From Amphiura filiformis (taxonomy: Eukaryota; Echinodermata; Ophiuroidea; Amphilepidida; Amphiuridae), in assembly GCF_039555335.1 (NCBI RefSeq), contig NC_092647.1, positions 6,958,608 to 7,022,607 of the forward strand: DNA of 64,000 bases, written 5' to 3'. The translations under genes were made by a program, and so were the position numbers. Under the pieces are notes generated by a model that was not told where the DNA came from, made no database searches, and worked only from the letters and a program-made list of their open reading frames with translations. Shown one piece after another: positions 33,373 to 64,000 of this stretch. Each line of letters begins with the position of its first letter. Position 1 is the first letter of the stretch.

Positions 33373-33540
33373 CAAATGAAACTGGTGGATGCCCAGACGG
33401 TTGGTATAGATTAGACTCTAAGTGCTACTCACTCAGCGGTACGGTTGATGCTAAGACATGGCAGGAGGCAAGGGAATGGTGCAATGTCAATGGCCCAGCA
33501 AATGGAGATTTGGCTACAATCTTTGCCCCAGGATTACAAT
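33373..33540 (+). CDS. CTLD A1, exon 1 of 3 (gene exon 3)
   Basis: After TTTTTTTTTCAG the frame reads NETGGCPDGWYRLDSKCYSL, the usual CTLD start with the first cysteine pair, then TWQEAREWC (helix 1 with its cysteine) and GDLATIFAPGLQ. Donor T|GTAAGA, phase 1-1, 168 nt. NET at the start is a potential N-glycosylation site. Confidence 0.9.
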
Positions 33541-33643
33541 GTAAGAATATGAGGGTTTCTTAGGTTTTTTTTTGGTTTTTTTTTCATATATTACAGAGAT
33601 AAAAACAACAAACATGCAAAAAAAAAAATAATAAGAAGAATGG

Positions 33644-33910
33644 CAATTATACTTGATGCGATCAAGCAAAATCAGTCGCAACTCAGAAATAATAAATTTT
33701 CAGTTTCTTATAAGAGAGTAAAAAACATTTACAAAGCTGTATTTTGTATAAAACCCTATTTAAATTGAACAACCAGTTCCAAAGATATGAGTAATTACAA
33801 AGTTTCCAAAACAACACGAAACAAAAGCAAATAACTCCTTTGTTTGGCTATATCTCAAAATCAATATTTCTGAGTTCCGCCTAATTTTGCTTGATTGCAT
33901 CACATATAAT
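33644..33910. mobile_element. MITE in CTLD intron 3
   Basis: Ends ACTTGATGCGATCAAGCAAA and, inverted, TGATGCAATCAAGCAAA match over about 48 bp including CAACTCAGAAATA and G(A)AACTCAGAAATA. About 267 bp, non-coding. Confidence 0.7.
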
Positions 33911-34588
33911 GCACAGAGAATGATATAAAATTTCATTTATAAAGAAGAAAGGAAAAACTTTGTATTATATTAAATATACTTCAGAAATGGAGGATTGTAT
34001 GGCCACTATGCATGCAAGTCCATCAAGTGGGACTAAATTTGGAAGCGAGCAGTCCTGATTGCATCTAGGTTCATTTATGCACATTGTGAAGGGTGCAACC
34101 ATGAGTGCTTTGTCTGGATAGAGGAAGGAGATCTTTCGTACACTCTGGGGAAACTCAGGAGGTCTTGTGATATTAAAATATGTTGGTACAATGATCCAAA
34201 AATAGAAAGTTAAAAAGTTATTGGTGGTTTGATTGAAATCAGATCAGGTCAAAGAAATGCTGGGTTTAATCCTTCTAGGATAAGAATAGGAGCTTTTGCA
34301 AACCCTCTACAGAATGTATCTAGCTTCAAGTCAATGTGTCATAATATCTTTGGGTGGTTGGTAATGGAGCATTAAAATCGAATCAAAGTCATCACATCAA
34401 AGACAGTGAAAAACATGATGGATTCTAGCTTTCCAGCAATAGGCCATTTCATAAATTACACTTATGATCAATCTTATACTTGAGGTAACATGGCTTCAAT
34501 CAAAAGATCACCTGTAAATGTCATTATGAATGGTTTGCAATATATAGCAATGTAGTTTTCTTAACAATTATGTTTCAATTACTTGCAG

Positions 34589-34734
34589 CATTTCTGACAG
34601 CATTATTGAAAGCCTTCCCAGTGGATATGTGGATTGGTCTGTCAACAGGCAGCTCAGACCCGACCTTCAAATGGGCTGATGGTACAGCTCTTGACTATAC
34701 CAGATGGGCAGAAAACCAGCCAGAGGGAGGAACG
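34589..34734 (+). CDS. CTLD A1, exon 2 of 3 (gene exon 4)
   Basis: Acceptor TTACTTGCAG; reads FLTALLKAFPVDMWIGL (second helix and the conserved WIGL strand), FKWADGT and WAENQPEGG. The QPE tripeptide sits where sugar-binding CTLDs have EPN or QPD. Donor ACG|GTAAGT, phase 1-0, 146 nt. Its 3' half and donor are repeated five more times downstream (34735-35310). Confidence 0.9.
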
Positions 34735-35310
34735 GTAAGTAATATAAGATCTCTATTGCAAGAAGTTGGGACCCGACCTTCAAATGGGCTGATGGTACAA
34801 CTCTTGACTTTACCAGATGGGCAGAAAACCAGCCAGAGGGAGGCATGGTAAGTAATAAAAGATCTCTATTGCAAGAAGTTGGGACCCGACCTTCAAATGG
34901 GCTGATGGTACAACTCTTGACTATTCCAGATGGGCAGAAAACCAGCCAGAGGGAGGCACGGTAAGTAATATAAGATCTCTATTGCAAGAAGTTAGGACCC
35001 AACCTTCAAATGGGCTGATGGCACAACTCTTGACTATTCCAGATGGGCAGAAAACCAGCCAGAGGGAGGAACGGTAAGTAATATAAGATCTCTATTGCAA
35101 GAAGTTAGGACCCAACCTTCAAATGGGCTGATGGTACAGCTCTTGACTATTCCAGATGGGCAGAAAACCAGCCAGAGGGAGGCACGGTAAGTAATAAAAG
35201 ATCTCTATTGCAAGGAGTTAGGACCCAACCTTCAAATGGGCTGACGGCACAACTCTTGACTATTCCAGATGGGCAGAAAACCAGCCAGAGGGAGGCATGG
35301 TATGTAAAAT
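34735..35310 (+). repeat. 113-bp tandem array carrying the 5' splice site of gene exon 4
   Basis: The real donor GTAAGT is at 34735; copies follow at 34848, 34961, 35074, 35187 and 35300 (the last as GTATGT), each exactly 113 bp apart. Each unit holds about 28 bp of intron start (AATATAAGATCTCTATTGCA) and about 85 bp of exon (CCTTCAAATGGGCTGATGG through GAAAACCAGCCAGAGGGAGG). Units differ at only a few sites, so the expansion is recent. As 113 is not a multiple of three, read-through changes frame. Two older, decayed units lie at about 35430-35500 and 35560-35635. Confidence 0.9.
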
Positions 35311-36012
35311 ATCTCTATACAAACGGCTATAACATGTAAAGTTACCAACCATCAAACCCAAACTCATGTATTTACGAACTGCGAAAGATGAGTGCCCTAC
35401 TAGTACTAGTACTGGTAATTATGACCTGTCTCCTCACCTTCAAATGGGTTACACAATAAGGGCAGGTGGAAGGGCAGCAAGTAATTTAAGGTCTGACATT
35501 TTTTCTCAGTATTACTGTGTACAAGCAATTTATGGATTGATGTTGTGCCTTGTGCATAAACTACATCAACAGCAATCTGCATATCAAGCAGAGGGAGGCC
35601 TTGTAAGTAATATAAGATCCCTATTGCAGGAATGCCCGTTTTCAGGCTTCGTGTTACTCCAAATTTCCACAGTTTTATTTATTTTCAGCCCCTTTTAAGA
35701 GTTTATAACCTAAATTTGCGTGCTTTTTCAGGCTTTTCTGGTATAGTCACTTCAGGCAACTGGCATCCCATCAGTGGGCAGTGTAGGCTCAAGCTTTCAG
35801 TGCTGGTCAGCAAAATAAGCTCTACAGGTCTGATGTTTAAAAGAGCTGATGCTGTAACTACGGTACCCTGCTAATTATATTTAGAGGTGTGCCTACTTAA
35901 AAGTGAAATAACTACTTATAAATTAAACATCTTGATTACTGTAAACAAAGTGGGCATTATCAATTAGAAAGCCGTAATATTGTAAAATAAATAATATTGC
36001 TTTGAATTTCAG

Positions 36013-36112
36013 AACAAGTGTGTGAAGTTGGTAAATGATCCCAACAACCCTGGAGAGTGGGATGATGTAGCTTGTTTAGAGAGCAATGCCTTCTTGTGTC
36101 AGAGTGACTTGG
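36013..36112 (+). CDS. CTLD A1, exon 3 of 3 (gene exon 5)
   Basis: Acceptor TTTGAATTTCAG; reads NKCVKLVNDPNNPGEWDDVAC, then NAFLCQSDLG. It supplies two of the last conserved cysteines and WDD at the WND calcium-site position. Donor G|GTAAGT, phase 0-1, 100 nt. Confidence 0.9.
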
Positions 36113-36946
36113 GTAAGTATACAGTAGCCATTATGAGTAACTAGCAAAATGATGATGGGCAGAGGAAACCTCCGATGTGTCATAACCTCATGGTAGTTTT
36201 ATTTTAAACATGTTCAAGGGCCACAGGTGCATAGGAGGATTTTCTGCCCAATGACAAGCCTTTAAAAGCTTTGAAACATTTGCAGAAATATTGATAATAA
36301 TTACAAGAAGATTGATGATTTTTCTGTTGATATCAGCAATAAAACTACAGAATAAAACGGCAATGTTTAGCCTCTTCCTCCAAAATAATGAATACAACAT
36401 GTAAGCAATGCTTACTAAGCATGCATAAACGCACACACAAGTTCTAGGCATGGTAAATTTTAACGTTTATGTGTGCTTCTGTTAACTTGCAGTTGCGTAT
36501 AGGCCACTGTAACATTGTGCAGGTAATCAAAGGTAAATTGACAAGGACACTTAGGCATGCAATTGCATGACTATCAGGGTTGACCCATGGTGTTTCAAAT
36601 TAAGCCATTTCAACCATGATCTTGTTGTCACTTTAAATATCAAGCTGTAAATGGTTTTAAGCTTGAAATTGGGGGGGGGGGGAATTATTGTCTGAAGTGA
36701 TTTTAGACTTCAAAGTTGATTAAGGTGCATGTATAGTTGCTACAAATAGTAGGCACATGCAGCAAAAATCCCACAATATCAAATAAAAATTGTGTATTCA
36801 TGTAAAAGATACAGCAAATTGAAGGTGAGTAATGTATTTACTCTGTCTATTTTTTTTATAGTTTCATGAAAAAGAAAATTCTTCATGTTTTTCCTCTTAT
36901 TTTTGGATGTAAATTCCCTAAATTTCTCCATAATTGATGATTTCAG
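36113..36946. other. CTLD intron 5
   Basis: No further feature beyond a poly-G run at 36671-36682 and TTTTTT tracts near the acceptor. No exon seen. Confidence 0.4.
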
Positions 36947-37191
36947 ACCCAGACGTATCCGATAACATAACCATCATTAGTCAGTGCGAAAGTGACGAAT
37001 ATCAGTCCTACTTTGATGCATGTTTCCGAGTTGAGCCCACACCAGTGACCTTTGATGATGCCATAGCAATATGCCAAGGAGAGAATGCCGAGTTGGCGTC
37101 CCTTACAGATCGCTATCAGGAGGCTTTTGCCCAAACAGTGCTGTACAATAATGGATTGGACAATATGTGGATTGGTTTAGAGAGAAACCAG
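36947..37191 (+). CDS. CTLD B1, exon 1 of 2 (gene exon 6)
   Basis: Acceptor ATTGATGATTTCAG; reads DPDVSDNITII, then CESDEYQSYFDACFRVEPTP, helix 1 AIAICQGENAELASLTDRYQ, helix 2 QEAFAQTVLYNNGLDNMWIG. Donor CAG|GTAGGA, phase 1-0, 245 nt. NIT is a potential N-glycosylation site. Confidence 0.9.
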
Positions 37192-37544
37192 GTAGGAAAT
37201 ATTCCATGTGCGCAGCCCTGTATTTGTTACTTAACCAAAAAGACACTGCCATGTCTGTATTAACTTAAAGACCCATTCAGTGATCCCAGCGCAGGCATAA
37301 AAAAATTAAAATTTTTATTTTTGAAATGAAAAATTTGACGAAAAACAAAGAAAACAGCAGTATTAACGAAGTTGAAGCCCCATTTAAATACATGTAGCAA
37401 CATCTATGACAATGACAAAGGTATCAAAATCTGATTTTTATGATCATCCAGATGAGCAAATCACTGAATGGGCCTTTTATCAAAAAGACTCTGCCATGTT
37501 TGGTGGGGGGGGGCAAAATTGTATACTTCTGGATCTGAATCATG

Positions 37545-38075
37545 AACCTTTTATTTTATTTATTTCTTCTTTAACCTGGGACATGCAATCAGTGACCAGC
37601 ACTGTTCTCCCTTGCTGCCCAGGATACAACACAGATAAACAACAAACATGTATTTAAAAATATACATAAAAGTCATAAAATTAATACCATATAAATTATA
37701 CACATACTAGGTACAAGAAATTTAAATAACATATGATAATTACATTTACAATGTGCTACATAAAAGAGATATTATTGCAAGTTGGTATATAATTTATATT
37801 CTTGAAGACATTTGCATTGACAGGAAGGGGATTTTTGATGTTTCGGGGAAGATCATTCCAGGCCTTAGCCCCCCTGAACAGGAAAGTTCTCTTGCCAGTC
37901 TCAGTGCGCATCTTATTTAGAACCTTGCAAACTTTGATGCTTGTTCGTAAAGAACATGACCCAAATTCAAAGGCTAATATTATTTCTCAAAGTAGAAAAG
38001 TCTGGTTGGTGTTATATTAGACAGTATAGCACAGCTGCAATGCATGACTTGATGGAATGTTCATATTAGTATTAT
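37545..38075 (-). mobile_element. 5'-truncated non-LTR retrotransposon, 3' end, in CTLD intron 6
   Basis: On the minus strand an open frame reads FEFGSCSLRTSIKVCKVLNK then FLFRGAKAWNDLPRNIKN, the RGAKxWNxLP motif found at the C-terminus of CR1/L2-like reverse transcriptase proteins, and stops at about 37764. A 3' UTR ends in an A-rich AAATAAATAAAATAAA tail near 37550. Truncated, so immobile. It sits antisense to the host gene. Confidence 0.75.
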
Positions 38076-38101
38076 GCACTGTTCTAACCAATTGATTGAT
38101 T

Positions 38102-38601
38102 GGTAAGCGATGTCTTCCAACCACCGGATCAAGAATTTAGGGTTAGGGTTAGAGTTAGGGTTAGGGAATGGTTAGGGTAGAGTCCGAAGTTTTCCGTTTT
38201 ACGGAAAACTGAAGAAAATCACGGAATCGGAGGTACAACACGGAAAATTACATTTTTGTATGATGTGACAAAAATTGTTAAAAGATAAAGGAAATAAATG
38301 TTAAAAACAATCATGAGTTGTGTATGTAAATGAACCCCCTATATCCCTCCAAACATCGTAATAGTCAGCTTATTATTGTGAGAATATTCCAATCAGAGCA
38401 TATTGATCGAGATATTTAACACTTTATTGTGACAATAATATCATTGTTTATACATTTTAAGCTTTATTCATGACACGGATTTACAAATTTTACAACACGG
38501 ATTACAACACGGAAAATAGAAAACGGTAAACTTCGGACTCTAGGTTAGGGTTAGGGTTAGGGAATCATTCTCGATCCGGTGGTTGGAATACATCGCTTAC
38601 C
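38102..38601. mobile_element. MITE with telomere-like TTAGGG core, interrupted by another MITE
   Basis: Ends GGTAAGCGATGTCTTCCAAC and (inverted) GGTAAGCGATGTATTCCAAC match over about 38 bp to CACCGGATC. Just inside, (TTAGGG)n-like runs lie at 38138-38176 and 38543-38565 in the same strand orientation. The tract is split by the element at 38178-38543. Confidence 0.75.
38178..38543. mobile_element. Nested MITE with TAGAGTCCGAAGTTT ends
   Basis: Left TAGAGTCCGAAGTTTTCCGT and right, inverted, TAGAGTCCGAAGTTTACCGT form ends of about 25 bp, flanked by TTAGGG-like sequence. CACGGA words repeat inside (38219-38245, 38473-38518). Non-coding. Confidence 0.8.
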
Positions 38602-38820
38602 TCATTGATTCAACTCTCAGTGATTCCATGGGCAAAATCTAGGATTCAATTTGATTCTTCTTTTCAAATTGAACATCTTATTTGAATATAAGCATTTAAC
38701 AAATATGTTTTCGACACTGTCGTTCATTTCTTGTCTTCTTTATTTGCCCCACCATTATATTTGACATATAAAATCTTGGCCTTTGACCTCATTGTTCTCT
38801 ATTTGATATATTTTGTATAG

Positions 38821-38983
38821 ATGTCTGGTGATTATAAGTGGCAAGATGGATGGCCTTTGACCTTTACTTCCTGGGGTATGCATGAGCCGAGTGGTGAGGA
38901 ATGTGTTACCATGACGAATAGAGAAACATGGAATGCTACAGGATGTTTTGACATGAGACCGTTCATCTGCAAGTACACATTAG
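38821..38983 (+). CDS. CTLD B1, exon 2 of 2 (gene exon 7)
   Basis: Acceptor TTTTGTATAG; reads MSGDYKWQDGWPLTFTSWGM, HEPSGEECV, WNATGC, MRPFICKYTLG. EPS replaces EPN; WNA replaces WND. NAT is a potential glycosylation site. Donor ATTAG|GTAGGT, phase 0-1, 163 nt. A second GT four bases on (GTAG|GT) makes a tandem donor, relevant to the frame problem at the next exon. Confidence 0.9.
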
Positions 38984-39366
38984 GTAGGTTATTATAGGTT
39001 TATACATATGCGCTATATAACAGCATGCGTGATTGGTCGATAGACAGGCATTTCCGGTCGTAAACAAGCCGTGCGAGAACTGATGGACGCTCGCGAGTAG
39101 GATATTACGCGCCTATTTACGCAAAACACAAGTGATATACGCAATGTTCGTGCACGTCCAAACACGACAAACTGAGCAAGTAAACGTTTTATCACAATTA
39201 GCGATGGAAAAACTTTAAAAAAATGATAAGGAACTTGTAGTTTTTAGTCTAAAATGATGGTATTTTTAGTTGTGGAGGAAAATAACAGCAAGCAGAATGT
39301 TGCGTTTGTCGGGTATAAACAATCGTTTAGTCATGAAAATATATGAATGAACCCCTGATTCATTAT

Positions 39367-39529
39367 ACGGCTCTTCCATTTAATGTTCATACACCCTCTA
39401 TGGAAGACATGACCTAAATCTGCCACACAGGACATTCAGGTAATATCATTTGAAACTCATAGCCCCTGTGTAGAAGATTAAAGGCATGTCTTCCATAGGG
39501 GGTGTATGGGTTTTACCTGGAATAGCCCA
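39367..39529. mobile_element. Small MITE (GGCTATTCCA family) in CTLD intron 7
   Basis: Ends CGGCTCTTCCA and, inverted, GGGCTATTCCA. Inner arms pair CATACACCCTCTATGGAAGAC with GTCTTCCATAGGGGGTGTAT. A relative with the same ACACCC/GTCTTCC arms is at 60363-60473. Confidence 0.7.
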
Positions 39530-39918
39530 TAGGGGCAGTGTGCCGGTATTACTTAGGGTTGCCACACCCGGGGATTGGTAGCCCAATTAAGTGTCCGTGG
39601 ACTCGTCCTGCGACTTGAAAATGGCTGCATTTGAACCTCAATGTGAAAACATTCATTAATAAGATACTTGATGTTTTAAAAAAGACTAAAGGGGATTGTA
39701 GATAAGGTGGGAAAAACACACTTTCATATAGTTTAACAGTTTGTGCTTGCATAAGTGTACACACCTCCATCCCTCCCTCCCTCCCTCTCCAAGACACATG
39801 GGGTTGGATGCATAGATGAATTGACCTCAATGTTTATCAACAAAGGCAAGGGACTGGTATATCGATATTCTTGAGTGAGCTGCATACAACCACTACACTG
39901 TTCAATAGCCCTTAATTG

Positions 39919-42559: not shown

Positions 42560-42724
42560 GTGAATTTCAGTGGAGTGATGGTTCTGTGGTGAATTATGTA
42601 GACTTCATGGATGGTCAACCATCAGGCATGGGAAACTGTGTAGAGATGGACCTGTTGAATAATGGCCAGTGGAAGAGTGATGATTGTAATGATAACAGCC
42701 CATACTTCTGTAAAGCACCTGTTT
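42560..42724 (+). CDS. CTLD C1, exon 2 of 2 (gene exon 9)
   Basis: Acceptor TTTGATTTCAG; reads GEFQWSDGSVVNYVDFMDGQ, PSGMGNCVEM, GQWKSDDCNDNSPYFCKAPV. QPS occupies the EPN position, and the residues after W (KS) are not the calcium-binding ND. Donor T|GTAAGT, phase 1-1, 165 nt. Confidence 0.9.
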
Positions 42725-43117: not shown

Positions 43118-43435
43118 TCTTTTATTTAAATTTTATTTATTTATTTGGATTCCGATAACCTGTTACTGGAATTTTGATCTGGGTAGGCCAAGGACGGGTA
43201 GGAATTCTGTACCCGGGAATTGGTGAGAGCCTTACAACATGCAATATTCAATATATATCAATAGTCAATTTCGCATCCTCGAGAGAGTGACGTCAGTGTG
43301 TGCTCCAGTGCGTGTATTATTGAATTGCACAGTTTGACTCAAAACCACAGGCGTGTACATGGTCCTACCAAAGCACTGACATCACTCTCTTGAGGAAGAC
43401 AAAATGGACTATTATGGTTTCATCACAGAAATATT

Positions 43436-43757
43436 AAGACATTTTATTTTCAAGATTTCATTATTTATGTTTTTGTCAAGCATTGTAGTTTTTCTCACAT
43501 AGTTTGATGTTGTTTTTCTACACAGATGATTATGATGCAGGTGGTTGTCCATTGTCAAGCATTGTAGTTTCCCTCACATAGTTTGATTAAGACATTTTAT
43601 TTTCAAGATTTCATTATTTATGTTTTTGTCAAGCATTGTAGTTTCTCTCACATAGTTTGATGTTGTTTTTCTACACAGTTGATTATGATGCAGGTGGTTG
43701 TCCATTGTCAAGCATTGTAGTTTTTCTCACATAGTTTGATGTTGTTTTTCTACACAG
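43436..43757 (+). repeat. Tandem copies of the 3' splice site and start of gene exon 10
   Basis: TTCTACACAG followed by (A/T)TGATTATGATGCAGGTGG occurs with acceptors ending at 43525, 43678 and the real one at 43757. Spacings are 153 and 79 bp. The two upstream pseudo-exons read YDYDAGGCPL, then stop at TAG after about 18 codons and lack a donor. A TTTTATTTTCAAGATTTCAT plus TTGTCAAGCATTGTAG block is also doubled (43441, 43593). Confidence 0.85.
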
Positions 43758-43928
43758 TTGATTATGATGCAGGTGGTTGCCCATTGGACTGGTATAAGCT
43801 TGATAATAAATGCTATACATTGGCTGGACAGAGTTCACCTATGACATGGCAAGATGCTAAACAATACTGTATGGAGACTGGTGCTAGTGATGGCAACCTG
43901 GCAACCATCAATTCTGCTGGATTACAAT
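43758..43928 (+). CDS. CTLD A2, exon 1 of 3 (gene exon 10)
   Basis: Reads DYDAGGCPLDWYKLDNKCYT, SSPMTWQDAKQYC, DGNLATINSAGLQ. Phase 1-1, 171 nt, donor T|GTAAGT. The real exon is distinguished from its upstream copies because only it continues past GGCPL into the full domain. Confidence 0.9.
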
Positions 43929-45189: not shown

Positions 45190-45335
45190 CATTTATGACG
45201 GCCATTTTGAAAGCTTTTCCAGTTGATGTATGGATTGGTCTGTACACAAACAGCACAGATCCTACATTCCAATGGTCTGATGGTTCACCTGTCACTTACC
45301 AAGAATGGGCTGATGGACAGCCAGATGGTGGCCTA
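45190..45335 (+). CDS. CTLD A2, exon 2 of 3 (gene exon 11)
   Basis: Acceptor AATTACACAG; reads FMTAILKAFPVDVWIGLYTN, FQWSDGSPVTYQEW, ADGQPDGGL. QPD is the galactose-type tripeptide of known lectins. Donor CTA|GTAAGT, phase 1-0, 146 nt. Confidence 0.9.
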
Positions 45336-46033: not shown

Positions 46034-46133
46034 AATAAGTGTGCTAGAATGTTGAATGTAGCAGAGAACCCTGGCAAATGGGATGATGATGAGTGCACTG
46101 TCCAGAATGCTTTCCTATGCCAAAGCAACCCAG
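46034..46133 (+). CDS. CTLD A2, exon 3 of 3 (gene exon 12)
   Basis: Acceptor TTTATTTCAG; reads NKCARMLNVAENPGKWDDDE then CTVQNAFLCQSNPG. WDD at the calcium position. Donor G|GTAAGG, phase 0-1, 100 nt. Confidence 0.9.
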
Positions 46134-46836: not shown

Positions 46837-47081
46837 ATCCCAACCTTCCTGGTAACCCAGACATAATCAGCAACTGCGGCCGTGAGGGCTATCAATCCTA
46901 TTTTGATTCTTGTTTCCGTGTGGTGTCTACACCCATGTCATACGATATGGCCATGGAAACATGCAAGAATGAGAGTGCACAATTAGCCTCCGTCACAGAC
47001 AGATATCAGGAAGCATTTGTCCAGACTGTGCTGTATAATAACAGATTGGATTCCATGTGGGTTGGGTTAGCAACAGAAGAG
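46837..47081 (+). CDS. CTLD B2, exon 1 of 2 (gene exon 13)
   Basis: Acceptor TAATCCCCAG; reads DPNLPGNPDIISNCGREGYQ, SYFDSCFRVVSTPM, AMETCKNESAQLASVTDRYQ, EAFVQTVLYNNRLDSMWVGL. Donor GAG|GTTTGT is weaker than the others. Phase 1-0, 245 nt. NES is a potential glycosylation site. Confidence 0.9.
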
Positions 47082-48255: not shown

Positions 48256-48418
48256 ACATCTGGGCAATACCAATGGCAAGATGAGTGGCCTTTGACCTTC
48301 ACATCCTGGGGCATAGATCAACCTAACGGTGAGGAGTGTGTGCATGTGGATGCCAAAGGATACTGGAATGGGGCTGATTGTGCTATGATGAAGCCATTTA
48401 TTTGCAAGTACACATCTG
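48256..48418 (+). CDS. CTLD B2, exon 2 of 2 (gene exon 14)
   Basis: Acceptor ATCACTATCAG; reads TSGQYQWQDEWPLTFTSWGI, DQPNGEECVHV, YWNGADC, MKPFICKYTSG. QPN at the sugar-site tripeptide; WNG in place of WND. Donor G|GTAAGT, phase 0-1, 163 nt. Confidence 0.9.
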
Positions 48419-49139
48419 GTAAGTAGTGTGGAATTCCTTACATGCGCAATTTGTCACGACTCACCGAGTTTTGAAATTTTCAATTGTCCATTACGCAATT
48501 CCACTTGATGTGTAGTGGGAAATTTTCGTTGGGTTAATTTTTTGCAATTTTATTAATTCTGGACAGTTTAGTGGATGTATAGGCCTAATTCATGTTTCGA
48601 AACATATTTGCATTGAGTACTATGTGTAGTAAATATATTTGCAGGGTTAAAAATTTGAAGCTGCCTGTTCGACCATGAAAGCACAAAAATTACCCCCAAA
48701 ATCTACCCGCTATACAGTAAATATCCACTTGCCCAACTTGATATATCACTTGCCCTGCTCTTTACACATATTTCTTTTCCTAAACCCTGATGAAGTAATG
48801 ATACGATAGTGACCAGACAAGGCGTAGTAGGCAGTGCGGGGTACTTTTGTTGGAGGGGCACCTGATAGTTCACATAGGTATTTATCAGGTAATCATATCT
48901 GTCATTTTAAATATAGTTGCCCATCGGGCAGACATATCAGTGTTTTGCTTTCCCGACGTCAACTTTTGGTTGTACCATGCTACTGGGCAGAGGATTGCAT
49001 AGGTGGTAATAACAGGTGTTCAAAAAAGGCTTCCAGCATGCTACCTGTTACTTACTGCTAGCCCTCCAGCACCTCCTTCATAATTCTGCCCCAGCAGATG
49101 GGAACAAGTGAGAATCTATTTGATGACCTAGCATTGTTA

Positions 49140-50126
49140 TTTTCATCACCCACAACCTCACCACCAGTCCCTCCAGCATCTCTTTCATGATTCTGTCCCA
49201 ATGGATGGGAACAAATGAGAACCTATCCTTGTCTCACCACCAGCCCCCTCCAGCACCTCCCACAGGTATCTGCCCCAACAGATGGGAACAAATGAGAATC
49301 AATATGATGACCTAGCATTGTTGTTTTTCTCCCACCCACAGCCACACCACCAGCCCCTCCAGCACCTCCCACAGGTTTCTGCCCCAACGGATGGGAACAA
49401 ATGGGCACCAAGTGTTTTCTGTTTGATGACCTAGCATTGTTCATTTTTCTCCCACCCACAGCCTCACCACCAGGCCCTCCAGTTCCTCCCTCAGGTTTCT
49501 GTCCCAACGGATGGGAACAAATGAGCACCAACTGTTTATCTGTTTGATGACCTAGCATTGTTTGTTTTTCTCCCACCCACAATCTCACCACCAGCCAGCC
49601 CTCCAGCTCCTCCCTCGGGTTTCTGTCCCAATGGATGGGAACAAGTGTGCACCAACTGTTATCTATTTGGTGATATAACATTATTGTTTTTCTCCCACCC
49701 ACAGCCACACCACCAGCCCCTCCAGCACCTCCCACAGTTTTCTGCTCCAACAATGGGAACAAATGAGCACCAACTGTTATCTGTTTGATGACCTAGCATT
49801 GTTTGTTTTTCTCCCACCCACAGCCACACCACCAGCCCCTCCAGCACCTCCCACAGTTTTCTGCTCCAACAATGGGAACAAATGGGCACCAACTGTTATC
49901 TGTTTGATGACCTAGCATTGTTTGTTTTTCTCCCACCCACAGCCACACCACCAGCCCCTCCAGCACCTCCCACAGTTTTCTGCTCCAACAATGGGAACAA
50001 ATGGGCACCAACTGTTATCTGTTTGATGACCTAGCATTGTTTGTTTTTCTCCCACAAGTGAACAAGTGGGCACCAACTGTTAATCTATTTGGTGATATAA
50101 CATTATTGTTTTTCTCCCACCCACAG
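49140..50126 (+). repeat. ~120-bp tandem array carrying the 3' splice site and start of gene exon 15
   Basis: Units contain TTTTTCTCCCACCCACAG, a Pro-rich linker (CCACCAGCCCCTCCAGCACC), then GGTTTCTGCCCCAACGGATG and TTTGATGACCTAGCATTG. Intact acceptor copies precede 49342, 49462, 49705, 49824 and 49943; the unit near 49582 has lost AG (ACAAT); two more degraded ones lie at 49140-49320; a truncated one at 50030-50070. Spacings are 119-122 bp. No unit has a donor, and most read-throughs break frame. Minus-strand frames here are repeat translations. Confidence 0.9.
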
Positions 50127-50381
50127 CCTCACCACCAGCCCCTCCAGCACCTCCCGTAGGTTTCTGCCCCAGTGGATGGGAACAAATGGGCGGCAACTGT
50201 TATCTATTTGATGACCAACTCATGGCTGCATCCTGGAGTGATGCTCATGATGATTGCCAAAGCAAGTATGGAGCTGAATTGGCTAGTGTTCATACCAACA
50301 GTGAAGAAGATTTCATCAGACAAAGAGCAGAGACTGCCTTCCCAGGGTCGAGTGTATGGCTGGGCATGGAACGTTCTATGT
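50127..50381 (+). CDS. CTLD C2, exon 1 of 2 (gene exon 15)
   Basis: Starts with a Pro-rich linker (ASPPAPPAPPVGFCP), then GWEQMGGNCYLFDDQLMAAS, WSDAHDDCQSKYGAELASVH, EEDFIRQRAETAFPGSSVWL, GMERSM. Donor T|GTAAGT, phase 1-1, 255 nt. The copies upstream share only the first third, so this is the functional one. Confidence 0.9.
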
Positions 50382-51322: not shown

Positions 51323-51478
51323 ACATGCTGAGATGGACAGACAAATCATTGGTTGATTATGTTAACTGGATGGATGGTGAGCCAGACTCAGGTGATTGTG
51401 TTACAATGAATGGTCAGGATGGCTGGAGTACTAATGATTGTACAATGACCAATCGCTATGTCTGCAAGGCACCTGTCT
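51323..51478 (+). CDS. CTLD C2, exon 2 of 2 (gene exon 16)
   Basis: Acceptor TTATTTATTTAG; reads YMLRWTDKSLVDYVNWMDGE, PDSGDCVTMNGQDGWSTNDC, NRYVCKAPV. EPD at the sugar tripeptide; W-S-T follows where WND would be. Donor T|GTAAGT, phase 1-1, 156 nt. The upstream TTTCTCTCTCT tract (51170-51270) is intronic. Confidence 0.9.
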
Positions 51479-52891
51479 GTAAGTATAGTAGACTAGATTT
51501 TGGGTTCTCGGGTTGGGTGGTTCTCGTAATAGGCCTATCTCTAATTACCAAACACCCGTACCCATATACCTGCCCTGTCCTTTTAAACTACTGTGATATG
51601 TGCATATGTCTCTCAGTGATCCAACTTGACACAACTCTGTTTTGTAGTTGTGACCCTTACTTCGGTATCCATAATCTGGAAACCCATCGTTCGCCTCGTC
51701 CAAGCCCTGAGTGTCCTGCTACTACATTGGAAGACCCTGAAAATACCCCCGGTATCTGGATGGAGGCTGTTACTAAAGTGATGAAATCAATAGGAAAAAA
51801 TGTGAACGCAATAAGGCCTAATGTAATGGGTTATAGGCCTTACCATAATTGATTATTTTTATGGACCACGGAAATAGTCATTGAAAATGGTCCTATGAGA
51901 TGTACTCCACGCACACGCCCGTTGATACTCCGCAATAGTACTCTGCGCATGCAATAGCGCACAGACAGAGGACAGACACTCTGTAAATAGTATTATGATT
52001 ATGCATTCAGGGTAAGCTGTTGTGGTGGTAAAAAAAGAAATTTTACCACCGAAAACATTGAATACATCAAATATTTTTCATTCAGTTCCAGCTGTTTAAA
52101 ATAACAATATACACAGTGGTAATTATAGTGGTAAAGATGTAATATGCAGCAGTAGAGAGGCCATGCTGCCAAAAATTCTTTATTCAACGATTTTGTAGGA
52201 CAAATGTTTCAATTTCAAATGGACACTTCATATATCAAAAGTTAAGAAGAGTCTGGAGAATCTTTCCTGCTATGTTGTCAAATTTGTAACGCTATAGCAT
52301 TCTCTTCTGTTTCAATAGCAACGGTCACAATATTTTATGATTTTTTTTATTTTTTACACAAAAATGTCATGTTTTATAGAAACTTTTTATTTGGTGTGCA
52401 GAATACATGGATATGGATATTTAATATCCATGAAAAAATCATCACTTTCAATACATTTGATTAATGGGTAAAAATGTGATTTTTTTTTGCAAGTATGATG
52501 AGCAAAAGTGTAATTTTTGCTTGGGAAATTAAAATGGTTTTTTTTTTGCGTCATGCAAAGTTTATCAATCTATTGAGATGTTAGGTCAAAAAAGTCTGTA
52601 ACAACATTATTCTGTGACCTCTGATTTATTTACCTATGACCTCTTGAAATTAGTAGGCATATTTTTAGTGATTTTTAGCATTTTGGCCAAAAATGGATCC
52701 CTTTTCATCATTTTTATCAATTCCATATATCACAAAAGTTTGTATTACACTTTATATTATTGATATACACAAGACTTCTTTAATTTCAAGATATTAGGAG
52801 AATTCAAAGAGAAAACAGTTTCCATTCAATGGCCATTTGTACACCCATATTTGGTCAACTTTACTTCAAATTTTGCTCAATTTATTTTCAG
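51479..52891. other. CTLD intron 16
   Basis: No exon found. The open frame running 51136-51852 is exon 16 read through both splice sites. The remainder is AT-rich with no clear inverted-repeat element. Confidence 0.4.
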
Positions 52892-53062
52892 TTGACTATG
52901 AAGAAGCAGGATGCCCAACTGGCTGGTATAAATTGGACAAGAAATGCTACACATTAGGTGGTCAGGGAAGTCCCCAGACATGGCAGGGAGCTCAACAACA
53001 ATGTATGGATGGTGCTATTGCCAATGGAAACCTAGCAACGGTATATGTAGAAGGACTGCAAT
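52892..53062 (+). CDS. CTLD A3, exon 1 of 3 (gene exon 17)
   Basis: Acceptor TTTATTTTCAG; reads DYEEAGCPTGWYKLDKKCYT, SPQTWQGAQQQCMDGAIANG, NLATVYVEGLQ. Donor T|GTAAGT, phase 1-1, 171 nt. Confidence 0.9.
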
Positions 53063-53174: not shown

Positions 53175-53380
53175 TTTTTAATACTTGAGAACTTTAGCTG
53201 TGAATTTGCACACAATAGTTACACATTTGAGGCTAGAGTGTGTTGCCATCCTTTTTTTTTGTAGATTAGTGTTGATTTTTTTTGCAATGCATGTTCAATA
53301 TTCTGTTGATGTTTAAATTTGGATGATAGTTATTTTGATGAGTCAACTATATCTTTTATAGCAAAGTTTGCCTATTTACG
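53175..53380. repeat. Intronic segment shared with intron 2
   Basis: Same orientation copy of 32645-32850; see that entry for the matching words. The two are clearly diverged, so the duplication is not recent. Confidence 0.65.
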
Positions 53381-53563: not shown

Positions 53564-53712
53564 CACTTTTGACTGCAATCATGAAGGCATTCCCTGAAGA
53601 TGATGTGTGGATAGGTCTGTATACCGATGACATGGATGATGCATATAAGTGGGCTGATGGTGCACCACTTACATACACCAATTGGGCTGATGGACAACCT
53701 GATGGAAATACA
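53564..53712 (+). CDS. CTLD A3, exon 2 of 3 (gene exon 18)
   Basis: Acceptor TTGGTTTCTAG; reads LLTAIMKAFPEDDVWIGLYT, YKWADGAPLTYTNWADGQPD, GNT. QPD present. One codon longer than the other A middle exons (EDD insertion). Donor ACA|GTAAGA, phase 1-0, 149 nt. Confidence 0.9.
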
Positions 53713-55774: not shown

Positions 55775-55877
55775 ACCACAAAGTGTGTTGGTATGCTGAA
55801 TAACCCAGACAATCCAGGACAGTGGGATGATGTGGAGTGTATGGAAAATAAACTCTATCTTTGTCAAAGTGATCCTG
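55775..55877 (+). CDS. CTLD A3, exon 3 of 3 (gene exon 19)
   Basis: Acceptor CTGTGTACAG; reads TTKCVGMLNNPDNPGQWDDV then ECMENKLYLCQSDPG. WDD at the calcium position. Donor G|GTAAGT, phase 0-1, 103 nt. Confidence 0.9.
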
Positions 55878-57425: not shown

Positions 57426-57667
57426 ATCCTGCTCTTCCAGGTAACCCAGATCTTGTCAGCTTATGTGAGCGTGGTTATCAGTCGTACATTGATTCATGCT
57501 TCCGTATTGAGCCTACACCAATGACGTATGCTATGGCCATGGAGACATGTCATAATGAGACGGCTCAGCTAGCCTCCTTCTCAGACCTCTACCAAGAGGC
57601 ATTTGCCAATACTGTGTTGTACTATAATAGTTTGGAGTCATCATGGATTGGGTTGATGGAAAACCAG
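57426..57667 (+). CDS. CTLD B3, exon 1 of 2 (gene exon 20)
   Basis: Acceptor CTCTTCTTTCAG; reads DPALPGNPDLVSLCERGYQS, YIDSCFRIEPTPM, AMETCHNETAQLASFSDLYQ, EAFANTVLYYNSLESSWIGL. Donor CAG|GTAATT, phase 1-0, 242 nt, one codon shorter than B1 and B2. NET is a potential glycosylation site. Confidence 0.9.
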
Positions 57668-57734
57668 GTAATTATTCTAAGAGTAAAGTAAGGGTCATAA
57701 TTTTTTATTATTATTATTGAGTAAGATTTTTTTG

Positions 57735-57795: not shown

Positions 57796-58175
57796 CTTTA
57801 TTTAATATTATTACCTGGTCAGATTCTCTGTATATAATATTTTCTTTACTAAAAACTTTTTTTTTGTTTTCATAAGTTTTTAAGAATATTATGATTGTAT
57901 AAACTACATTTTTGTACTCTCTGTCAGTAAAATACTGAATCTATAATTATATAGATCTACGTTTGAATTTACCACTTTAGTAATTTGTGTATACATCTCT
58001 GCTGCTAACATATCCTGGGTGCGTCCAAAACATGGTAATAAGTTAATACCTTTGACTAATCCTAAGGCTGAATATTGGTAAGGACTGAAACACTCACCCT
58101 GGACCAATGGTCCATAGGTCAGGGGTCAAATTGAATAAAATTATAAGTGTTTTTCTATTCTCTAAATATGGTAAA

Positions 58176-58352
58176 AAGCTTACTTACTTACTTGCTTATG
58201 TCGGCTTGTCTAGTCGGACTCTGCTGATGGCACTCCACACAACTCTGTTCTGCATGCAGTTCCTAATGTCTTGTCTCTCTAGTCCAGTATCCTCGATAAG
58301 TTGCTTTATGTAGTCCTTCCGTGATTGTCCTCTTGATCTTTTACCATGCATA
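58176..58352 (-). mobile_element. Non-LTR retrotransposon C-terminal fragment in CTLD intron 20
   Basis: Minus strand reads GKRSRGQSRKDYIKQLIEDT, GLERQDIRNCMQNRVVW, then a stop at 58196, followed by a short (AAGT)n tail. The GKR-RG-(R)P/S then W(R/S)xx pattern is typical of the extreme C-terminus of RT-encoding LINE proteins. Severely 5'-truncated. Confidence 0.65.
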
Positions 58353-58645
58353 GGCAAAAAAAAAAGCTTAACAAAGTATTAATGCTCTGCATGCTAGACA
58401 TAGGCTTCAACATAAAAAAGTTTTGAGATATTTTTTCAAAATATCATCAAGAGCTTTCTTAAGAGCCACTAAGCCAATACTAGGCTAGCTTGCTTGTACT
58501 CAATTTAATGCATTTTTTATGCCAATTCCAAATATGGTAATGAAAAGTTTACAATTCTAAAATTGTTGTAGTCGACACCCGCATGGAGAGAGGTAACCTT
58601 TGTAACACCACCTCAGTAGATTTTTTTGTTTGTCTCTCACATTAG

Positions 58646-58808
58646 ATGACAGGAGAGTATGAATGGGAAGATGGGTGGCCTTTGACCTTTACATCCTGGG
58701 GCATGGATGAACCAAGCGGTGAGGGATGTGTGGCTTTGACTAATGGAGAGACTTGGGATGATACCAGCTGTGAGGAGATGAGACCATTCATGTGCAAATA
58801 TTCACTGC
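58646..58808 (+). CDS. CTLD B3, exon 2 of 2 (gene exon 21)
   Basis: Acceptor TCTCACATTAG; reads MTGEYEWEDGWPLTFTSWGM, DEPSGEGCVAL, TWDDTSC, MRPFMCKYSL. EPS plus WDD: the only B domain keeping an acidic pair after W. Donor C|GTATGT, phase 0-1, 163 nt. Confidence 0.9.
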
Positions 58809-59074
58809 GTATGTATAGTTACTTTGTCTCTAGAGTTCAAACTTACAATTAACAAGTGCTCATGAAATTTGTATTTTGTTCGCACAAAATAAAATGGTTA
58901 TTTTAGCAATGATACCATTCTATCAAAACTATAACTAATTTTTTAATTCTTCAAAGTTCTGTATACGAGCTTATAACCCCTATAGGTTACTGTGTAAAAT
59001 GACAGCTATTCAAATACAATTTTCTCAGCTATAAAGGGACTGGTTCTTTCAAATGTGCATTTGAAGCAGTCAAG

Positions 59075-59395
59075 TAGTCAAGTTAGCTCAATCGTTAAAA
59101 TTGTGGAAAATTGAGTTGAAATTCCCCTGGACAAGGAACTTACTGCTAATTGTCTTGTTGTAACCTCGGGGAGCTGATCCTGTTTACGAAAGTTATTTGC
59201 AGAATGTCTAGGGTGTGCGCTCTTGAAGCAGCAAAGTCCCTGATTTGTTGTTAAATGGTTTATGGAATGATGTGGGGCCGTAGTGGTCAGCAACAACCTG
59301 TAAAGTGTGCTGAGGCTTGTGGGTCAATGTCTAGGCATTGCGCCTGTGTGTAGCACACTATAAATCACTGTGCTTATTATTTATTATATTTGAGT
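59075..59395 (+). mobile_element. tRNA-derived SINE in CTLD intron 21
   Basis: TTAGCTCAATCGTTAAAATT is an A-box-like head and AGTTGAAATTCCCC a decayed B box, followed by CTGGACAAGGAACTTACTGC and a tail ACTATAAATCACTGTGCTTA ending in TTATT repeats. This head-body-tail order is that of metazoan SINEs with a (TTATT)-type end. Confidence 0.65.
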
Positions 59396-59608
59396 AGTCA
59401 AGATATATAGTGGCCACTCCATGGGTGTGGCTATTTGATGATGATCATAGCATATTCTACAATAATAAATTTATTGATGTGAAGACAAAAACTCTTCATG
59501 ATATTGCTTTGTGCCTTCAGATTGATTCAGTTGATGAAATATCACAAAATGAATGATATAGATGAGTAATATTTTGTGACTTTGTGCTGTATTTTATATA
59601 TCACACAG

Positions 59609-59869
59609 AAGCACCACCACCATCAGAACCTACTCCAATACCTGGCTACTGTCCCAGCGGATGGGATCAATATGAGGGCGCATGTTATCTATTTGATGCT
59701 GCCTCTGCAGCAGGATCATGGGAAATGGCGGAGGAGGAATGCCAGAAAATGAATGGAGCCAGTCTTGTAAGCCTGCATAATAATAATGAGGAGGATTTTG
59801 TCATGACACATGCAAAGGCAGCGTTCCCATCGGCTTCTACGGTGTGGGCTGGCATGAAGAGGGATGTGG
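59609..59869 (+). CDS. CTLD C3, exon 1 of 2 (gene exon 22)
   Basis: Acceptor TATCACACAG; Pro-rich linker APPPSEPTPIPGYCP, then GWDQYEGACYLFD, WEMAEEECQKMNGASLVSLH, EEDFVMTHAKAAFPSASTVW, AGMKRDVG. Donor G|GTAAGA, phase 1-1, 261 nt. The conserved W(I/L)G strand reads WAG. Confidence 0.9.
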
Positions 59870-60362
59870 GTAAGACATGGATTGTTTTTCTTGTCATCTT
59901 GTATGCTTTACGGGGGCATTGGCCTATGTAGCTGACTAGTACCATTTGGTGGGTGTGTGGGCGGAACATGTAGAACAGGAATACACATGTGTTTGTAACT
60001 ATGAAACACTGGATACACTTGAAAATGGGGAACCCATTTGACAACATTACTGAAATACTCAGATAAGTTTCAAAAGGGGTCTATAGAGGATTTTAAAGCA
60101 TTGGAGTTTTACTTCTATAGCACTATCACACGCATACACAAATAAGGGAGGGTGGAGTTGATAAGTTGTGTGAGGCCCATTGTTTTGCATTCATATAGTT
60201 CCAAAAATATATCTTTAAAGCCAGCATTATAGGGTAGATGTTGGGGGCCTGAACTCCAAATGCTTGAAAATGGCACTTATTACATCTGAACTCTTCATAT
60301 GTTTGCCACTTACAATGATTTAATTTCTATTTGTTTTGTTGTTACTTATGTTTCTTTTTCAT

Positions 60363-60473
60363 TGGGCTATTACTGACTTCATTTGAAATTCACACACCCT
60401 ATGTGGGAGGTTAAAGACATGTCTTCCACAGGGGGTGTATGGATTTCAACAGTAATCACCGGTAATAGCCCAT
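60363..60473. mobile_element. Small MITE (TGGGCTATTAC ends) in CTLD intron 22
   Basis: TGGGCTATTACTG and, inverted, TGGGCTATTACCGG; inner CACACACCCTATGTGGGAGG pairs with TCTTCCACAGGGGGTGTATG. Related to 39367-39529. Confidence 0.75.
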
Positions 60474-60526
60474 TGTATTGCATCCATAAGTTGCTAAGTT
60501 GTATATTACTGTTTTCACCTCAACAG

Positions 60527-60691
60527 ACATGTTAATGTGGAGTGACCAATCTCTGATAAACTATGTGAATTGGTTTGGTGGTCAACCAGGAACTGTGGGT
60601 GACTGTGTTGAGATGAGTACAAGTGGTGCAGGAGGATGGAGGGCTAACAACTGTGCCTTGAATAAAAATTATGTCTGCAAAATACCTGAAT
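60527..60691 (+). CDS. CTLD C3, exon 2 of 2 (gene exon 23)
   Basis: Acceptor CACCTCAACAG; reads MLMWSDQSLINYVNWFGGQP, GTVGDCVEM, GGWRANNC, KNYVCKIPE. QPG at the sugar tripeptide, WRA instead of WND, so canonical sugar binding is unlikely. Donor T|GTAAGT, phase 1-1, 165 nt. Confidence 0.9.
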
Positions 60692-61124
60692 GTAAGTAGT
60701 CCTTCCTGTGTGAGGTTGGTAGTGACATCAAAAAGCGTCCCTGCGTGGCTGACAGTGTTAAATTTTGCTGCGCTTAATATTCTGTGATTGTGAAAACAGT
60801 GTTTTGCAGCTACGCAACCTAAAACATGCAGTATGTCACTAAAAATCTCGAGGTGTTAAGAAGCTGATCCAAAATTGGGATTTCTGGATATGTTTTTTTG
60901 CAACAGAATATAAGCCAATTTCGTATCACACAATACCATTGATTTATACTTGATCATCAAAGTACTGATATGCAGTGAAAGAACCATTTTTGGTGTTGTC
61001 TGCTTAGCAGCCAATATGAATTCATTTTATTTGTGACACAATCTACTCCATGGAGGCCAAAGGAGACATTTTTGAAAATTGAGTTACTATAATTATTACC
61101 TTACACAAACATTAGGCTATCATT

Positions 61125-61410
61125 TACTGACATCCACACAATAAAAATGAAGAAATGGCATTGGGCTGGCCGTCTTGCAAGATCAACAGGTAATAGACAT
61201 GATAGATGGACAAAGAATGTCACAGAATGGAGGCCTTGGCTGGGCTCAAGACACCAAGGTAGATGGAAAGTCAGATGGAGGGATGAGATATCAAGTTTCA
61301 TATATATATCAGGTGGGTGGTAAAGGCAAATGACAGGAATCTTGGGTGCCAACTTGGAAGCTTTTGCCCTACAGCGAGCTGAATACAGCTAATGATGATG
61401 ATGATACTGA
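61125..61410 (+). mobile_element. RTE-like LINE 3' end with (TGA)n tail in CTLD intron 23
   Basis: The frame KMKKWHWAGRLARST, RWTKNVTEWRPWLGSRHQGR, WKVRWRDEIS is the KW(x)WAGHxAR - RWT - WRP - GRxxxRWxDE signature of RTE-type endonuclease/reverse transcriptase C-termini. One stop and a small gap follow before NLGANLEAFALQRAEYS and a stop, then a TGATGATGATGAT tail as such elements have. Truncated and decayed, in sense orientation with the host gene. Confidence 0.8.
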
Positions 61411-61528
61411 AAAGGTCTAGCATACGTGGCTCTAAAGTTCTGAAGTTTTGTGATGTGTATTTTATCATGTATTTTTTTAATTTTTTTATTCCATATGTTT
61501 GCCCCCATGGAGCAGATCGTGTCACATT

Positions 61529-61708
61529 TACCTTTTCTTTATAAATCAAATGTTTCATAAGTCTCATGTTGAATACCTTTTCTTTATAAATCAAATGTTT
61601 CATAAGTCTCATGTTGAATACCTTTTCTTTATAAATCAAATGTTTCATAAGTCTCATGTTGAATACCTTTTCTTTATAAATCAAATGTTTCATAAGTCTC
61701 ATGTTGAA
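61529..61708 (+). repeat. 45-bp tandem repeat, four copies, abutting gene exon 24
   Basis: Units TACCTTTTCTTTATAAATCA plus AATGTTTCATAAGTCTCATG start at 61529, 61574, 61619 and 61664, essentially identical. The array ends 21 bp before exon 24, so it replaces or contains the branch-point region. Being 15 codons long, it makes repetitive open frames on both strands that are not genes. Confidence 0.9.
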
Positions 61709-61729
61709 TGATGCTCTTTTTTGTTTCAG

Positions 61730-61900
61730 TCAATTATGCTGATAGTGGTTGTCCGCCAGACTGGTTCAAACTGGATGAACACTGTTACACATTGGCTGGC
61801 CAGAATTCCCCAATGACATGGCAAGACGCTAGGCAATACTGTATGGATAACAGTGTTGGGGATGGGGATCTGGCTACTGTTTATACAGGGGGATTACAAT
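61730..61900 (+). CDS. CTLD A4, exon 1 of 3 (gene exon 24)
   Basis: Acceptor TTTTGTTTCAG; reads NYADSGCPPDWFKLDEHCYT, SPMTWQDARQYCMDNSVGDG, DLATVYTGGLQ. Donor T|GTAAGT, phase 1-1, 171 nt. Closest in wording to A2 (NSPMTWQDAxQYC). Confidence 0.9.
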
Positions 61901-62754
61901 GTAAGTTCTATAATAATAATCATAATATTTCTATAATTTGTCTAACCTAGAAATAAGAAATATTCTAGAAAATGCTGGAGCAACATTAGGCAAACAAATG
62001 TGTGTGTTTGGTCTCATTGACTGACCCTCATTTTGAAAAAACAAAACAACAAAAAACTGACCCTAATTTCTGAGAATCCAGAGCCAGCATTTTTCCGGTC
62101 TATATTTTTGCATTCTAATTAATCAAAAATACACATTTTAAACAAAATGTATCACTTAAAACCTGCTTTAACATTTAAATAAGTACCACAATAGCATAAT
62201 ATTGCAAGTTATGTACACACCATTTGGAGGTTAAACTTCATATTGTTAAAAAAGTGGGCCAAACATAGTAATTTTTTACCTTATGCATGTATGCAGAGTT
62301 ACTCACAATTCCAGAAAAACACAGCACTATTCACTATTTTTTCAGATTAAAGATGTTATCCTGTGTTAATCTTTTAGTAAGTTCTAACTGGCAATAAAAG
62401 TCAAATTTTAACACTATGCAAGTGTCTACCCCATGTAAAGATGCAAGCAAGATTTAAGATAATAGCACCATCATTGTTCAACTTAACTCAAAAATAACTT
62501 CCGTGTTTACGATGTATTATTCGCCAATACCATCGCCATTACTGATTGTGTGTGGATCATGGTAAGCTTACACAAGATAGTATGCAAATTGTTTGTTTCC
62601 AGTGGAAGTTAGGGGGACATTTATTTAATTCAATTTTTCAAAAAGACTGGAGGGTCGTGTGTTAGAGAAGGGGCATTAATTAGAGGATATATGGTATATA
62701 TTTGTACCTATTAGCTATTCATTGCTGCATTTTATCATTTTATCAATCCTACAG
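61901..62754. other. CTLD intron 24
   Basis: No element with clear inverted ends and no exon seen; AT-rich sequence with CTGACCCT-type words. Confidence 0.4.
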
Positions 62755-62900
62755 CGTTCCTGACTGCTATCATGAAGGCATTCCCCGTAGATGTGTGGAT
62801 AGGTCTGTATAATACTAACATTAGTCCCGAGTTCCAATGGGCTGATGAATCACCTGTGACCTACACCAGCTGGGCTAATGGCCAACCAGATGGTGTTGTT
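62755..62900 (+). CDS. CTLD A4, exon 2 of 3 (gene exon 25)
   Basis: Acceptor CAATCCTACAG; reads FLTAIMKAFPVDVWIGLYNT, FQWADESPVTYTSWANGQPD, GVV. QPD present. Donor GTT|GTGAGT, phase 1-0, 146 nt. Confidence 0.9.
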
Positions 62901-63512
62901 GTGAGTATTACTATTACTTATATGATCATTTCAATTGTTGCTTTTAAGTTTAAAAAATACATATATACTTGAATTATGCTACTTGGCGATTCGCTGCCGC
63001 TACTCAAAAACCATGTTGCTTCTTGCCTAAAATTGGGCTACTTTTGCAAGTGTCAGGCCACGGCTGTAATTTGACATATTTTCCTTTCAATTCAGCAAAT
63101 TATAAAGTAATTGAATCTCTAAAGCTCTAAATTGTAATAACAATGGGTTATGTGACAACTTATTGATACCAGAATTTTTTAGTAAAAGTAGAAGTAAAAG
63201 TGCCCAAATATCCTTTTTTTGGTGTTTTTTTGAAATCCTAAACGTTGGGCTACTTGAGTCATTCACTGCGGTCTTGTGAGCCAATTTACTGTGCCTTGGC
63301 ACTGAAAAGTTTTGGTAACACTGCAAACAATTTACTAAACAATTTCATAGCAAATGGATTCTATCATTTGTTTGGGGAGAGCAAGGCACAGTGCTTGAGT
63401 ACTTTCCTCTGGTCCATGAAGTCTATTGTACATAGGGTCACACTTCTTTACTTCTTTCCACATTCATATGATAGCAGTAAGTTTCAGAAAGAGTAGGCTG
63501 TTTTTCCCAGAC

Positions 63513-63768
63513 TACCATAAAAACTTGATAGTTAGCATTTGTGCTTACTATCTAGCGCTTTTGAAAACATAAAATGGTACCAAACTCTGCCGCTATGAGC
63601 TAATGGGGTTGAGACACAAATTTGCAGGTTTACTTTTTCGTAGATAACTATGTGTATCGATGATTTGATCAAAACCCTATACACTTTTGTGGATGGGGCT
63701 CTTCATGTTTGCATGTTTCAAAAGCGCTCGATAGTATGCACATGCTAACTATCAAGTTTTTACTGTAC
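63513..63768. mobile_element. Tc1/mariner-like MITE in CTLD intron 25
   Basis: Ends CCATAAAAACTTGATAGTTA and, inverted, CAGTAAAAACTTGATAGTTA, matching onward through GCAT..TG(C)TTACTATC and GCGCTTTTGAAA, about 55 bp. TA at both edges. Confidence 0.8.
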
Positions 63769-63911
63769 TTCAAACTGTCTCACCAGCATCTAGAAGGGTC
63801 AATTAAGAAATTGATGATTTGGAACTGGTAATTGCTATCCTTTGTAAAAATAACATCAAAAGAATAGAAAATGAATAGGATGTAATGAAGGATTTTGTTA
63901 CTGTTTTGCAG

Positions 63912-64000
63912 GGTACTGGTTACTGTGTAAAGATGGTCAATGATCCTATGGATCCAGGCAACTGGGATGATGTGTCATGTGATCATGCTAATGCCTTCCT
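63912..64000 (+). CDS. CTLD A4, exon 3 of 3 (gene exon 26), cut by window end
   Basis: Acceptor TGTTTTGCAG; reads GTGYCVKMVNDPMDPGNWDD, VSCDHANAFL, then the window stops. WDD present; the last cysteine and donor are outside. The gene therefore continues, probably with B4. Confidence 0.9.

Follow-up and report, generated by a model that had tools for sequence, protein, structure and literature searches.

How does a gene come to encode a long tandem row of lectin domains, and by what unit does such a row grow? The question is raised by a locus of the ophiuroid Amphiura filiformis, contained in a stretch of 64,000 nucleotides of contig NC_092647.1 (GCF_039555335.1, positions 6,958,608 to 7,022,607 of the forward strand) that we call the window and in whose coordinates all positions are given. 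From 33373 to the window end, 24 exons on the + strand splice into one frame of 1375 amino acids with 0 stops, bordered by 24 AG acceptors and 23 GT donors. They code for ten C-type lectin-like domains (CTLDs), of which the first nine are complete and the last is truncated where the window ends. Most probably this is part of one large mannose-receptor-like multi-CTLD gene, grown by head-to-tail duplication of an ancestral seven-exon block that encodes three domains, A, B and C.

Sorted by exon architecture, the domains follow one another as ABC ABC ABC A, with three exons for each A and two for each B and C, which makes seven per block; four A, three B and three C domains can be arranged in 4200 ways, of which the observed order is one. 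In the spliced model the first block consists of A1 (33373..33540, 34589..34734 and 36013..36112), B1 (36947..37191 and 38821..38987) and C1 (41857..42095 and 42560..42724). The second comprises A2 (43758..43928, 45190..45335 and 46034..46133), B2 (46837..47081 and 48256..48418) and C2 (50127..50381 and 51323..51478), and the third A3 (52892..53062, 53564..53712 and 55775..55877), B3 (57426..57667 and 58646..58808) and C3 (59609..59869 and 60527..60691). The array closes with A4 (61730..61900, 62755..62900 and 63912..64000, the last exon being the truncated one). Entry and exit phases are 1-1, 1-0 and 0-1 for the successive exons of type A, 1-0 and 0-1 for those of type B, and 1-1 twice for those of type C. 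Two exons depart from this in the open-frame model, B1 exon 2 (0-2) and C1 exon 1 (2-1). Read from the spliced model, one intron of type A lies before the WIGL motif and one after QPD, while types B and C each have a single intron a few residues past WIGL, at phases that differ between B and C.

Most of this layout had been foreseen. The original prediction, made from the letters of the window, listed ten CTLDs in the order ABC ABC ABC A with three, two and two exons per type, and both the number (A4 being incomplete) and the order are found in the spliced model. The four A starts it gave (33373, 43758, 52892 and 61730) are exact, and its period near 9-10 kb agrees with an overall block spacing of 8.3-10.6 kb (A to A 10385, 9134 and 8838; B to B 9890 and 10589; C to C 8270 and 9482, with C1 measured from 41857). 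Introns were said to be preserved inside each type, and the internal phases are indeed the same in every copy. The phase patterns it proposed (1-1-0-1, 1-0-1 and 1-1-1) need one amendment, since type C reads 1-1-1 in two of three copies and 2-1-1 in C1. Its description of a strict super-repeat thus holds for domain order and internal introns, but not for every junction, as that between B1 and C1 deviates.

The domains belong to the C-type lectin-like superfamily. A scan of the spliced A1-B1-C1-A2-B2 portion matched Pfam Lectin_C in 5 stretches (E 5.1e-101), and the remaining five domains were assigned as CTLDs by their identity to these. Six cysteines, the number of a long-form CTLD with four core cysteines and an N-terminal pair, are present in all nine complete domains and five in the cut A4, and every one of the ten has a WIGL-type motif (WIGL, WVGL, WIGM, WLGM or WAGM). 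Identity between domains of the same type amounts to 55-62% for A, 59-61% for B and 41-51% for C, compared with 22-33% between types. The types form separate groups in a tree built from these ten domains (support 71/90 for A, 100/98 for B, 99/98 for C), again when 27 vertebrate CTLD rows are added (89/97, 100/99 and 96/87), and likewise with two subsets of these rows. By identity as well as by tree, domains in equal positions are therefore closer to one another than to their neighbours, as expected of a super-repeat; the grouping of B or C with a neighbouring A, which would have spoken against block duplication, did not arise. Same-type grouping combined with type-specific introns points to the whole seven-exon block as the duplicated unit, a conclusion also drawn in the original prediction and one that we regard as well supported.

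The copies are old. In all 12 same-type pairs, nonsynonymous divergence (dN) lies between 0.24 and 0.58 while synonymous divergence (dS) ranges from 1.36 to saturation, a combination that indicates long separation under constraint. Between blocks, blastn matches of at least 90 bp at E 1e-10 fall on exons in six cases and on a non-exon repeat in one; since they are almost confined to exons, the introns have diverged.

We envisage an ancestral block of three already diverged CTLDs that would have been copied in head-to-tail fashion by way of the phase 1 introns on either side of it, leaving ABC ABC ABC A and possibly further blocks past the window. A single transcript, as well as the number of duplication steps, is something we infer from this arrangement. 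The product would presumably be a secreted or membrane-anchored receptor. In type A, WDD is present in all four copies and QPD in three, A1 having QPE in its place; B1, B2 and B3 have EPS, QPN and EPS, and WNA, WNG and WDD, respectively, and the corresponding triplets of C1, C2 and C3 are QPS, EPD and QPG, and WKS, WST and WRA. Judged by this motif set and the general rule for such sites given below, A is the likeliest binder, B has a partial site and C a degenerate one, and our proposal is that each triad has a single main binding domain, namely A. Each A would bind calcium and a sugar of the galactose or N-acetylgalactosamine (GalNAc) type through QPD and WDD, B would retain a partial site and C would be mainly structural. 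A binding site in every third domain may then confer avidity for repetitive glycans carried by microbes or by self glycoproteins.

A number of observations weigh against this reading. The first concerns the frame between B1 and C1. The other two B-C junctions are phase 1. Here, a phase 1 splice from the donor after 38983 (B1 exon 2 then reading 0-1) to the acceptor before 41843, an alternative start at which C1 exon 1 is in phase 0, loses the frame and leaves 113 stops in the translation. The frame is open with a donor 4 nt later, after 38987, and an acceptor 14 nt downstream, and it is because the open model uses these two sites that C1 reads 2-1-1 as the sequence stands. By a crude score this donor is weak (-0.8 vs 4.7 for that after 38983); the donor of B3 exon 2, which the model accepts, scores even lower (-2.5). 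A real phase shift could explain the anomaly, as could a sequence error of one base or a broken allele.

The ends of the gene are a second matter. No candidate signal-peptide exon passed the donor threshold, and a relaxed scan returned several weak ones. The nearest of these, 32785..32857 on the + strand (an ATG, a hydrophobic stretch and a phase 1 donor GTAATG), is doubtful because it lies partly inside a dispersed repeat of ~190 bp, found at 32647-32838 just 5′ of the gene and, 76% identical, at 53188-53377 in the first A3 intron. At the other end the window stops inside A4 exon 3, and the model has neither a transmembrane segment nor a tail.

The sugar sites and the kinship of single domains add to these points. 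EPN or QPD together with WND makes up the calcium and sugar site, QPD being the galactose type, and the assignment of binding to A depends on this rule. WDD also occurs in B3 and EPD in C2, so that A is perhaps not the sole binder. The family resemblance is also less exclusive than it seems. Among solved structures, the whole-chain matches of the A, B and C profiles are all led by FcRY, PLA2R, LY75 and MRC1, but a whole-chain score sums over many domains and favours chains rich in CTLDs. Taken domain by domain, A scores 68.0 bits on a single MRC1 domain (1egg), 66.4 on the snake lectin BJcuL and 57.0 on FcRY CTLD2, and C scores 69.7 on CD23 vs 60.1 on MRC1 CTLD2, the best family domain with a score listed. 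For B the family leads (LY75 CTLD7 63.6, PLA2R CTLD7 alone 62.4, MRC1 CTLD3 62.2, aggrecan 59.4).

Single domains thus do not single out the mannose-receptor family (group VI: MRC1, MRC2, PLA2R/FcRY and DEC-205/LY75). Its members combine a cysteine-rich domain (CysR), a single fibronectin type II domain (FNII), 8 or 10 CTLDs, a transmembrane domain and a short endocytic tail. With ten CTLDs in tandem within the window, the array reaches the group VI mark of 8 or more and shares with the family a long CTLD row, top whole-chain matches for all three types, and a best fit of the ABC triad, in order, at CTLD6-7-8. It differs in having at least 10 CTLDs and seven exons per three CTLDs, and in placing same-type domains at every third position, unlike the vertebrate receptors. 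In the three + strand frames over 1-33377, Pfam found neither a ricin-type cysteine-rich domain nor a fibronectin type II domain at E up to 1, a scan that could miss a very diverged, split or more distant domain; as a positive control, the same method detected Lectin_C in two lectin-gene frames given to it. Given the single-domain scores and the lack of CysR and FNII upstream, the predicted protein is best called mannose-receptor-like, and we do not claim membership of the family for it.

The fit at CTLD6-7-8 raises an explanation that would add to block duplication without replacing it, namely that ABC is the homologue of vertebrate CTLD6-7-8, a triad that predates the split from vertebrates and was amplified here. 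We hold this to be possible but tentative. With vertebrate CTLDs numbered by order of matches, the whole-block ABC profile is best, and in order, at CTLD6-7-8 in all three full-length proteins (134.7 bits on FcRY over the whole block, 123.7 on LY75 and 121.3 on PLA2R over most of it). A profile of the A-B junction is likewise best at CTLD6-to-7 in all three (FcRY 22.9, LY75 27.2, PLA2R 23.7), and in the full tree A groups with CTLD6 (80/86), while CTLD7 and LY75 CTLD9 join B (86/88). However, the junction profile does nearly as well at FcRY 2-to-3 (21.5 vs 22.9), and on MRC1, with CTLD1-3 only, it fits at 2-to-3. Permuted blocks are strong competitors: a CAB control of two sequences only reaches 132.6 bits on FcRY CTLD1-2-3, and BCA reaches 115.8 on FcRY CTLD3-4-5 with a whole-chain score on FcRY of 437.7 vs 391.6 for ABC. 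On PLA2R, CAB at 5-6-7 outscores ABC, and on FcRY, ACB at 5-6-7 equals it. When CTLD order is shuffled, the best register has a P of 0.011 for LY75, 0.091 for FcRY and 0.32 for PLA2R, jointly 0.071. The tree placements shift with sampling: removal of LY75 separates A from CTLD6 and moves B to CTLD3 (74/74), and B groups with LY75 CTLD6 (57/69) when FcRY and PLA2R are removed; C is joined to CTLD8 in none of the trees. None of the 12 completed clade tests rejects at 0.05 (lowest p 0.060), and these include A with CTLD2 and B with CTLD3. Vertebrate and invertebrate CTLD families, moreover, hardly overlap according to PMC514892.

Less likely again is the fuller proposal that the triad is an ancient mannose-receptor unit, kept as vertebrate CTLD6-7-8 and amplified whole here, with one strong sugar-binder per triad. 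We also considered vertebrate receptors as two x-A-B-C units (2-3-4 and 6-7-8) and set this aside, as CTLD2 and CTLD6 are unpaired in the tree (p-AU 0.069 when held together); the joint 2-3-4 / 6-7-8 register score is suggestive, with a P of 0.015 over three proteins, but the pairing was picked post hoc. A separate observation concerns DEC-205 itself (LY75 chain 7jpt, ~1369-1634), where the full tree pairs CTLD9 with CTLD7 (94/90) and CTLD10 with CTLD8 (73/84), as though the additional two had arisen by duplication of the 7-8 pair. The subset that omits FcRY and PLA2R, and contains no CTLD8 row, pairs LY75 CTLD10 with CTLD4 (60/43).

Block duplication could also have produced several separate tandem genes of one ABC block each instead of one long gene, which we consider improbable. 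The inter-block introns measure 1.0-1.4 kb and two of the three contain AATAAA, in the C2-A3 intron two ATG frames are hydrophobic and have phase 1 GT sites, and C2 exon 2 read past its donor enters a short hydrophobic stretch. However, motifs of the hydrophobic-ATG and AATAAA kind arise by chance, and in the scan neither of the other two inter-block introns yielded a hydrophobic ATG frame of that type. Each of the three inter-block junctions joins a phase 1 donor to a phase 1 acceptor and keeps the frame open, and it is this single open frame with its matching phases that suggests one gene. The read-through of C2 exon 2 stays open over 51479-51849 via the hydrophobic stretch and is possibly a truncated isoform, or else chance.

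That the ABC alternation is a collapse or expansion of the assembly, without true block duplication, is highly improbable in spite of the tandem arrays that abound in the region and are hard to assemble and of the out-of-frame B1-C1 junction, because assembly duplicates would be near identical, whereas these copies differ at dS 1.36 to saturation, have introns of unequal length and keep each exon set intact.

Some of the tandem arrays involve the exons themselves. An intronic array at 34657-35311 (5.8 copies of 113 bp) repeats the 3′ part of A1 exon 2 with its GTAAGT donor, and of the six donor copies the exon's own alone gives phase 0 without a stop. At 49062-50216 a unit of ~119 bp repeats the acceptor and the 5′ part of C2 exon 1; there are six CCCACCCACAG acceptor copies, and the last is the sole one to open the exon stop-free. 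At 43433-43786, units of 153 and 79 bp consist of the A2 exon 1 acceptor together with the opening bases of that exon; the acceptor is present in three copies. Three separate exon borders of the gene have thus given rise to tandem decoy splice sites. At 61529-61709, ~20 bp before A4 exon 1, a 45 bp unit is repeated in four perfect tandem copies, and the B1 intron contains a telomere-like run of about seven TTAGGG copies (78% matches) at 38137-38178. A profile search of frames of at least 15 amino acids on both strands found no further CTLD exons, either upstream of the gene or on the - strand (best upstream E 0.28). A tandem array at 15291-16516 has no relation to the lectin gene, and Rfam and tRNA searches gave no match.

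Repeats of this general kind have precedents. Domain repeats often expand by several domains at once (PMC1553488), and in chicken nebulin a multi-exon block recurs along with a multi-domain block, at four exons for every seven domains (PMC1553488). Nebulin has another domain and period, and its exon borders as described there fall within domains, whereas the present array also has phase 1 introns between domains (B1-C1 excepted). In the titin A-band, equal-position domains are most alike across super-repeats, a resemblance that is clearest in the central C-zone (PMC10665226); these are muscle Ig and FnIII domains, and the best conserved part is described as lying in a single long exon. Among lectins, the genes of eight-CTLD mannose receptors are conserved both in their 30-exon structure and in their phases (PMC4229073), and the chicken DEC205 gene has 35 exons (PMC3541370). 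Invertebrate CTLD genes have also been named mannose receptors, as in the Manila clam, where RpMR1-13 have 2 to 60 exons; compared by description and not by sequence, the account of these genes mentions no ABC order (PMC12321717). The titles and abstract openings listed from the open-access literature name no lectin with a three-CTLD period, and no relatives were confirmed in the viral and prokaryotic collections viral_contigs (A and B queries) and genome_contigs (B query). The novelty originally suggested may therefore hold, within those titles and abstract openings, for the three-CTLD period, but not for the principle, since multi-exon, multi-domain super-repeats are already known from nebulin and titin. 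What is unusual for a lectin is the regularity of the triad.

A fixed CTLD triad as the unit of duplication gives a handle on the origin of long arrays such as the eight-CTLD mannose receptors, as the unit is defined and its intron phases can be compared. With one presumed binding domain alternating with two others, the array would also represent a natural multivalent design. If the triad does correspond to CTLD6-7-8, the origin of the mannose-receptor family would become testable domain by domain.

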